Below the pieces are notes generated by a model, which searched no databases, was not told where the DNA came from, and saw only the letters and a list, made by a program, of their open reading frames with translations. From Roseibium suaedae (GTDB lineage Bacteria; Pseudomonadota; Alphaproteobacteria; Rhizobiales; Stappiaceae), in the NCBI RefSeq assembly GCF_900142725.1, contig NZ_FRBW01000001.1, positions 1,364,001-1,428,000 on the forward strand: 64,000 nt of DNA. The letters run 5' to 3'. The number at the start of each line of letters is the position of its first letter. The first letter of the stretch is position 1. This document shows, one piece after another, positions 50,586 to 52,288 of the stretch. The position numbers and the translations under genes are program-made.

Positions 50586-50599
50586 GCCGTCTTTTGCCG

Positions 50600-51253
50600 A
50601 TGACCTCGACTCTGGTTACGGATCCGCCTCTGGATTGTCCCGTCTGCACTCGTCTCGTGGAATTCCGCGAGGGGCTGCAACGGGACTTTCCTGACTGGTT
50701 CAATGCTCCCGTACCCAGCTTTCTGGGTGAGAACCCGCGTCTGCTGGTGATTGGCCTTGCGCCGGGCATGCGTGGGGCGAACCGCACCGGCCGTCCGTTT
50801 ACCGGCGATTATGCCGGAGACCTTCTCTACGAGACCATGGTCGAGTTCGGCTTTGCGAAGGGGCAGTATCAGGCCCGTCCTGATGATGGCCTGACGCTGA
50901 CCGACGCGATGATCACCAATGCGGTGCGCTGCCTTCCGCCGGAGAACAAGCCGACCGGGCCCGAGATCAAGGCTTGCCGGCCCTATCTCATGGCGACGCT
51001 CGATGCGAACCCGCAGGTCCGTGCGGTCCTGGCCCTTGGCCGGATCGCCCATGACACATTCCTGACAGCATTGAACCTCCGCAAGGCGCAGTTTCCCTTT
51101 GCCCATGGCGCCCGCCATGATCTTGGAACGCGCAATCTGCTGATGTTCGACAGTTATCACTGCTCCCGCTACAACACGAACACGGGCCGTTTGACCCCGG
51201 AAATGTTCAAGTCCGTGTTCACGTCGATCCGGATCGATCTGCCGCGGGTCTGA
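50600..51253 (+). CDS. Uracil-DNA glycosylase, family 5 (UDGb-like)
   Basis: This enzyme removes uracil, and in family 5 also other deaminated bases, from DNA to start base excision repair. The 217-residue product has GLAPGMRGANRTGRPFTGD near residues 50-70, the family 5 active-site motif that lacks the catalytic Asp of family 1. The second motif lies in FDSYHCSRYNTNTGRL, in place of HPSxxN. CPVCTRL near the N-terminus could provide Fe-S cluster cysteines with later ones (AVRCLPP, EIKACRPY). ATG at 50600 or TTG at 50594 is the start. It is co-transcribed with the NYN gene. Confidence 0.92.
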   Translation: MTSTLVTDPPLDCPVCTRLVEFREGLQRDFPDWFNAPVPSFLGENPRLLVIGLAPGMRGANRTGRPFTGDYAGDLLYETMVEFGFAKGQYQARPDDGLTLTDAMITNAVRCLPPENKPTGPEIKACRPYLMATLDANPQVRAVLALGRIAHDTFLTALNLRKAQFPFAHGARHDLGTRNLLMFDSYHCSRYNTNTGRLTPEMFKSVFTSIRIDLPRV

Positions 51254-51270
51254 CCCGAGGTTGGTGCATT

Positions 51271-51533
51271 ATACCAACCTCAAGAAATAGCGACCTATTT
51301 GACCGCGTTTTCGGATTGTCCGGCAAGAAGCGTTTCGCAGGGCGATGCGGTGCATCTTCCAAGGGACGCGACGTAGCCCGGGCGGTTCGAAAACGCGGCC
51401 TCCGGTGGCCACTTCCGGCTCCCCGGACGTCGTTACGCTGCTTGCCCGATGCCCGGCATCGGGCGGCGCACCGCGCCTAGCCGGGAACCCGGCTGAGGCC
51501 ATCAAATAGGTCGTTATTTCTTAAGGTTGGTAT
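51271..51533. mobile_element. MITE-like element with 32-bp terminal inverted repeats
   Basis: The left end (51271-51302, starting ATACCAACCT) and the right end (51502-51533, ending AGGTTGGTAT) are inverted repeats matching at 30 of 32 positions. The 199-base interior is GC-rich and highly structured: CCGCGTTTTCG near the left end is complementary to CGAAAACGCGG at about 51390, and GCCCGATGC/GCATCGGGC and CCGGG/CCCGG hairpins follow. It has no coding capacity. The right end runs into the bpt stop codon. An extra AGGTTGGT copy at 51258-51265 could pair with the left end instead. Confidence 0.75.
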
Positions 51534-52288
51534 TACTTGTCCGGGGAGCTGATGGCCCAGCCATTGGGGCCGAGCTGTTCCTGTGGCTGGAACCTGGCCT
51601 TGTAGGCCATCTTCGGCGAGCCATCGACCCAGTATCCCAGATAGACATAGGGCAGGCCCATCTGCCGCGCCCGCTGGATGTGATCCAGGATCATGAAGGT
51701 GCCGAGGCTGAGGCCGGACACGTCCGGATCATAAAAGGAATAGACCATCGACAGGCCGTCGGCGAGCTGATCGGTCAAGGCCACGCCCATCAAGGGCCCT
51801 TCGCCAGCTCCAGTCAGGAAACTGTCCGGTCCCCTGCGGCGGTATTCGATGACCATGGTCTCCACATGGGTGTCCTCGATCATCATGGCATAGTCGAGGA
51901 CGCTCATTTCCGCCATGCCGCCGGTCTCGTGCCGGGCGAGCAGATAGCTGCGGAAGAGGTCATATTGTTCGGCAGACGGGGAGGCGGGCAGGCGCGCACC
52001 GACGAGTTCCTGACCAAGCTTCAGATGACGGCGGAAGGACTTGGTCCAGACGAAATCCCGCACCCTGACCCGGACCGATACGCAGGCCTTGCAGTCTTCG
52101 CAGGCGGGCCGGTAGGCGATGTTCTGACTGCGCCGGAAGCCCCCTTGGGTGAGGACGTCATTCAGGGCGCTGGCGTGCTGGCCGATGAGATGCGTGAAGA
52201 CCTTCCGCTCCTGACGGCCCTCCAGATAGGGGCAGGGGGCCGGAGCGGTCAGGTAAAACTGCGGATGATCGGTCGGGTGCCGTGTCAA
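51533..52288 (-). CDS. bpt: Aspartate/glutamate leucyltransferase Bpt (arginyltransferase family)
   Basis: Bpt adds Leu from Leu-tRNA to proteins starting with Asp or Glu, marking them for ClpS-ClpAP degradation by the N-degron route. The 251-residue product has [16 protein letters not shown] at 10-25, the cysteine-rich [16 protein letters not shown] at about 59-74, and the C-terminal GNAT-like half with [22 protein letters not shown]. The start appears to be TTG at 52288, with GGA eight bases upstream and no in-frame ATG near. Its stop codon lies at the edge of the MITE-like element. The SLC13 gene upstream is 27 bases away. Confidence 0.94.

Follow-up and report, generated by a model that had tools for sequence, protein, structure and literature searches.

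In the window analysed here, a stretch of 64,000 nucleotides from the Roseibium suaedae contig NZ_FRBW01000001.1, the gap between the convergent uracil-DNA glycosylase (UDG) and bpt genes carries a non-autonomous transposable element (MITE). A preliminary description, made from the letters alone, had read it as a MITE-like element or as a structured RNA delivered by one. The MITE reading is now established by the inverted ends, the target duplication, the dispersed copies and the element-free orthologous gap. The best explanation, which we consider probable, is that the element belongs to a 'two-arm family', with the mover and the role of the arms that are proposed below. It is well supported that the conserved unit of this family is the pair of arms in the interior, and that the ends are exchangeable.

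The borders were placed by the flanks of the copies and by an alignment of 54 full-length copies (Table 1). The true element is one base shorter on each side than the 51271-51533 first reported, the outer base being part of the TTA direct repeat. As the preliminary description had stated, 51271-51302 and 51502-51533 match in inverted orientation at 30 of 32 positions. Searches with exact and near-exact ends recovered these ends, and the reversed-pattern control gave zero in four of four genomes; a repeat search listed only the stem of arm 1 and missed the terminal repeat. The interior had been described as having no coding capacity, and the sole listed open reading frame (ORF) of at least 60 aa over most of the element (78 aa from a TTG start, 51269-51505 on the minus strand) gained no further support. 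One end lies at the bpt stop codon, also as described, with the same three bases serving as stop codon and right target duplication. The extra half-end AGGTTGGT is present outside the left border, where it faces the left end and forms a short palindrome with it. With a length of 8 bp, it may have arisen by chance or be the remnant of an older end.

Table 1. Parts of the element at the bpt locus and its neighbours (positions in the window).
Feature	Position	Strand	Basis and remarks
Uracil-DNA glycosylase superfamily ORF, convergent neighbour	50594..51253	+	ORF; Pfam UDG; adjoins bpt in 27/29 relatives
Extra half-end AGGTTGGT outside left border	51258..51265	-	Sequence
Left target-site duplication TTA (TNA)	51269..51271	.	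Direct repeat with 51533-51535; TNA rule in 35/56 Roseibium copies
Whole 261-bp element (MITE), TACC...GGTA	51272..51532	+	Flanks and 54-copy alignment
Left terminal inverted repeat, 31 bp, ends TTTGA	51272..51302	+	Sequence
Arm 1 ('GACC' arm), hairpin reading rightwards from left end	51301..51400	+	R2 93.5 bits, R1 74.7 bits; covariation
Arm 2 ('GATG' arm), hairpin reading leftwards from right end	51399..51503	-	R1 90.4 bits on minus strand; covariation
Right terminal inverted repeat, 31 bp	51502..51532	-	Sequence
Right target-site duplication TTA = bpt stop codon	51533..51535	. (bpt on -)	Sequence and ORF
bpt, arginyl-tRNA-protein transferase family, stop codon = insertion site	51533..52288	-	ORF; Pfam ATE_N and ATE_C; matched in 41/41 genus genomes

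Further copies, which the MITE reading required, were present both in the own genome and in related genomes. The own genome has six full-length copies including that of the window, the other five being at 97-98% identity, together with an internally deleted copy of 158 bp with both ends, one rearranged copy and two lone ends, one of which (C6:283306) has its start exactly on the stop codon that closes a 272-aa ORF. Two copies of this genome (L006 and L007) each carry a private change that recurs in both of their terminal repeats, as though one end were a copy of the other. Matches were found in 20 of the 41 genomes, namely the own genome, 18 of 24 further genomes from the genus and a single genome from a different family, some of them by the core only; in a scan of named contigs, all of the 21 matching stretches were from Roseibium. 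Because the closest relative by bpt (G202, 92% protein identity) has only a single match of 57 bp to the element, the present copies look recent. When lengths between 90 and 290 bp were allowed, 59 Roseibium pairings were parsed, and 56 copies remained after L090 and the second pairing of L102, which were false, and L065, a real copy with a mis-set right end, were dropped. Lengths outside the range taken as full-length (255-266 bp) were restricted to two deleted copies (158 and 168 bp) and two false pairings. The 54 copies other than the deleted ones made up the alignment; 53 of them are 260-262 bp long and one is 263 bp, with pairwise identity down to 57%.

The target duplications and the empty orthologous site expected of a MITE were both found. 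Exact 3-bp duplications flank 35 of the 56 two-ended Roseibium copies and are all TNA (15 TAA, 13 TTA, 4 TGA and 3 TCA). TNA stands at the left flank of 51 copies and at the right flank of 49; an exact 3-bp repeat is absent from 21 copies, including three of the six full-length ones in the own genome. In two genomes of other families, six of nine TACC copies also had TNA repeats. The plasmid collection gave a match only in Agrobacterium sp. MA01 (NZ_CP045856.1), where a TACC copy is flanked by TGA on both sides; two other queries had no match in that collection, and the phage collection had none to the element. For the empty site we examined 30 bpt loci, the own one and those of 29 of the 40 relatives with a bpt match. 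None of the 29 relatives had a match to the arm model beside bpt (one weak match in L232 lies away from bpt), and UDG adjoins bpt across a short or moderate gap in 27 of them, the other two having no UDG match. Among these loci the element is thus beside bpt only in the own one, and the insertion therefore happened in this lineage. As a separate observation, the gap is longer in the Roseibium loci L229, L237 and L240 and contains other repeat-like sequence there, either CCTCATCCTGAGGA-like or CTCAGGATG palindromic pieces, most clearly in L237. Repeats of more than one family may land in the UDG-bpt gap.

The arms extend well beyond the genus. Of 61 genomes drawn from the order, 14 (counting the own one) in 13 families were matched by a covariance model of arm 2 (R1), and 47 had no match; the matches per genome reached at least 60, these counts being lower bounds with up to 64 candidates of each genome scored. 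In a draw of 120 genomes from the phylum, three matched R1, namely the own genome and two genomes of one family, which we take to belong to another class. The matches in these two were weak (40-50 bits); of the four loci examined there, two (L212 and L214 in G172) have both arms and matching CTAGTG(T/C)CC ends, so R1 is no mere detector of GC-rich hairpins. Their ends represent a further end type. The 16 other genomes of the same order listed in the phylum draw had no R1 match, and the spread of the two-arm family is therefore patchy.

At least 53 two-arm elements were parsed from 68 loci, with 122 of the 132 arm matches used; two were cut by a contig end and eight were weaker overlapping matches on the opposite strand. 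Outside a TTTGA-like border, 30 of the 53 elements have TAGA-type ends on both sides, nine have TACC and five TAGTACC, eight have one end unclassed and one is a TACC/TAGA hybrid. The same arms were found behind TACC, TAGAGC/TAGACC and TAGTACC ends. The hybrid (L207 in G073:C46, arms at 492-695) combines one TACC end with one TAGAGC end, which is a hint of end exchange, and one genome of the genus (G017) holds both TACC and TAGAGC elements (L053-L064 and L108). The non-TACC elements sit in TA sites, often CTAG, where a TA duplication is indistinguishable from the repeat itself. In the single contig of G064 there are 19 TAGAGC-type end pairs within 5 kb, all of them 182-278 bp apart. We suggest that ends would be swapped by recombination between elements near the common TTTGA border.

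The preliminary description had noted an interior packed with complementary segments. These proved to be two hairpin arms that read inwards and covary strongly. The region 51255-51536 (282 nt, ends included) folds far better than its dinucleotide shuffles, with z-scores of -9.85 on the plus strand and -7.70 on the minus strand, and none of 200 shuffles on each strand folded as well. The consensus fold of the 54-copy alignment consists of a terminal stem and the two arms, with double changes in 53 of 81 pairs. Among 19 non-redundant Roseibium copies, double changes occurred in 24 of 36 pairs of arm 1 and 21 of 35 of arm 2; none of 500 shuffles was as high on any measure and slid structures scored far lower, the arm structures being derived from the same alignments and so favoured on cells paired, and related sequences being able to exceed shuffles without any structure. 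Across the order, at least two Watson-Crick types were seen in 31 of 34 and 24 of 25 pairs. An internal loop has positions left unpaired in the Watson-Crick structure whose conservation is 95% or more on either side; they read AG and AC in one arm and AGG and ACG in the second. The arms start directly after a border like TTTGA and always read inwards, and 50 of the 53 elements have one GACC and one GATG arm. Among Rfam covariance models, no family reached its gathering score in the window, and in four loci with relatives the only match had an E value of 0.22 and lay outside the element.

The two strands of the arms are not equivalent. Pairs were picked by Watson-Crick complementarity alone, which is equal for both strands and so avoids a bias of RNA folding. 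In the 19 of 54 Roseibium copies kept at less than 90% identity, arm 1 had 35 G-U against 9 A-C combinations; arm 2 had 3 against 17 on the arm-1 strand, that is, 17 against 3 on its own inward strand, and the terminal repeats showed no clear preference (20 against 13). For the order-wide set, we dropped three of 106 arms because their start was neither GACC nor GATG, as well as a single Roseibium row of the GACC arm that the same filter removed, and rows at least 85% alike were collapsed, so that 38 of 104 and 36 of 106 were kept. The inward strand of these arms had 106 G-U against 27 A-C and 59 against 33. By pair, G-U was favoured in 28 of 39 (p 0.009; 18 against 5 in one arm and a weak 10 against 6 in the GATG arm). 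The inward strand had the lower minimum free energy in 31 of 38 arms of one kind and in 31 of 36 of the other (p ~1e-5), a measure not independent of the G-U count. These p-values are guides only, because the sequences are related. In the terminal repeats of 45 of the 53 elements, the eight with poorly matched ends being left out, the counts were 29 against 26 as found and 23 against 32 when oriented by arm. The asymmetry is seen in the arms and not in the ends, and it is therefore the arms that appear to be under selection, or to mutate, in the form of a folded strand, namely the one that starts from the nearer end. Selection on a hairpin in transcribed or single-stranded form is suggested by this, and a mutation bias of DNA that is transcribed or single-stranded could also produce the G-U preference.

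Covariation and strand asymmetry favour the other reading in the preliminary description, in which a structured RNA would be delivered by a transposable element. We tentatively propose that each arm may be selected as a folded transcript, which we regard as possible rather than probable. A transcript entering from either side would first meet the arm in its better-folding orientation. It is possible, at a similarly modest level of confidence, that the element is a plain DNA-level MITE, in which the arms are a long palindrome whose halves stay matched through templated correction or gene conversion, with no function for the folded strand. The element shares 67% identity with its own reverse complement, some copies share a private change in both terminal repeats, the terminal repeats have no clear G-U preference, and templated correction of palindromes can mimic covariation, all of which agree with such a process. 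However, it does not account for the conserved unpaired positions of the internal loop, for the strand-specific G-U preference and stability, or for arms that remain distinct as GACC and GATG and do not converge. We consider it unlikely that the folded strand is single-stranded DNA and that replication or transposition involves recognition of the arms as hairpins. REP hairpins are recognised by RAYT proteins in this way, the asymmetry concerns the strand with its 5' end at each terminus, and G-T is tolerated over A-C in DNA folds as well. Nevertheless, the short target duplications fit double-strand DDE movement, which needs no single-stranded intermediate.

TNA includes TAA and TGA on either strand, and therefore an insertion at a stop codon rebuilds the stop. 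In Roseibium, the insertion point of 18 of the 56 copies coincides exactly with the stop codon of an ORF that is 100 aa or longer and has high third-position GC; for other TNA sites the corresponding figures were 69 of 1231 (up to 300 bp away) and 38 of 446 (up to 100 bp away). This would agree with an element that specifically seeks stop codons; however, against intergenic TNA sites within 200 bp, with genes called crudely by ORF and GC3, the excess was weak (15 of 48 at stops with 10.2 expected, P 0.029). Stop-codon targeting was strong against all nearby TNA sites and weak against intergenic ones, and it was dropped as a main claim; we now hold it to be improbable. The placement is mostly explained by the TNA target rule and by the loss of insertions inside genes. 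If the arms do act as folded transcripts, an insertion in either orientation would provide the mRNA upstream with a stable hairpin at its 3' end, and we propose that insertions at gene ends would therefore stay harmless or useful.

An autonomous transposon with the same ends, which the preliminary description had envisaged, was not found for the TACC ends. By eye, the end listings of seven genomes (G000, G012, G014, G017, G018, G021 and G024) contained no TACC pair at the scale of an insertion sequence (IS), at a setting that would miss a partner sharing only the outermost bases. The own genome had no match to PF01609, PF13586 or PF13358. The PF13586 and PF13358 loci had no TACC-ended IS, and no IS5-type locus with its own TACC ends was seen among 24 PF01609 loci and 18 loci of PF01609, PF13586 or PF13358. 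An IS-sized TACC pair in G017, considered as a candidate partner, turned out to be a MITE copy with a nested IS5; the only inward-facing TACC pair in the scanned loci (L090/L245) is a MITE around a nested IS. From G017:C1:433518 onwards (L099, 998-2377), an IS5-type IS with a DDE ORF of 255 aa is nested in a MITE copy, within its right terminal repeat. We infer that a DDE transposase that chooses TNA targets, and that resembles IS5 in this rule alone, would move the MITE in trans, and that the TAGAGC-ended relatives would be moved by IS630-like transposases that choose TA or CTAG.

The IS1031 subgroup of the IS5 family makes a 3-bp TNA duplication, and the two-arm TACC elements follow the same rule, although no IS5-type locus scanned has TACC ends of its own. 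The IS630 family duplicates TA and uses CTAG targets, like the TAGAGC-ended relatives in TA and often CTAG sites. An IS630-family IS with CTAGAGC ends is present in the host genome G062 (L259), but only its outermost bases are common with the TAGAGC elements and the inner bases differ; this comparison applies to the TA-type relatives and not to the copy in the window. The element resembles other bacterial MITEs in being short and non-coding, with terminal inverted repeats, a target duplication, dispersed copies and an element-free orthologous gap. Unlike them, it has a two-arm interior whose structure is strongly conserved across an order and belongs to a family with several end types on one interior, and no parent transposon was found for its TACC ends. 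Repeated, partly palindromic intergenic sequences have been reported from the same order as RIME, AB/C and Sm repeats of rhizobia and as Bru-RS of Brucella (PMC2573895, PMC2267715, PMC2266754), Bru-RS being 103-105 bp long (PMC2267715). The 261-bp element resembles these by their published descriptions. In a literature search of partial coverage, judged by titles and the starts of abstracts, no description of this element was recognised and no paper joined 'MITE' and 'Roseibium'.

The usual view of a bacterial MITE is that of a deletion derivative of a single IS, with an interior of no importance. In the two-arm family, conservation lies in the interior and the ends can be exchanged, and this holds over at least 13 families of one order. 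In its widest form, which we offer as a speculation with less than an even chance of being right, the conserved two-arm structured RNA would be the real unit, carried through the order and into another class by end-swapping MITEs, mobilised by unrelated transposases and, because one arm would fold correctly from either side, serving as a universal 3'-end cassette at any landing site. The covariance model of the arms can annotate many unlabelled repeats in Hyphomicrobiales. Because the interior is conserved and the ends are exchangeable, one can now test whether a selfish element persists through selection on a folded strand.
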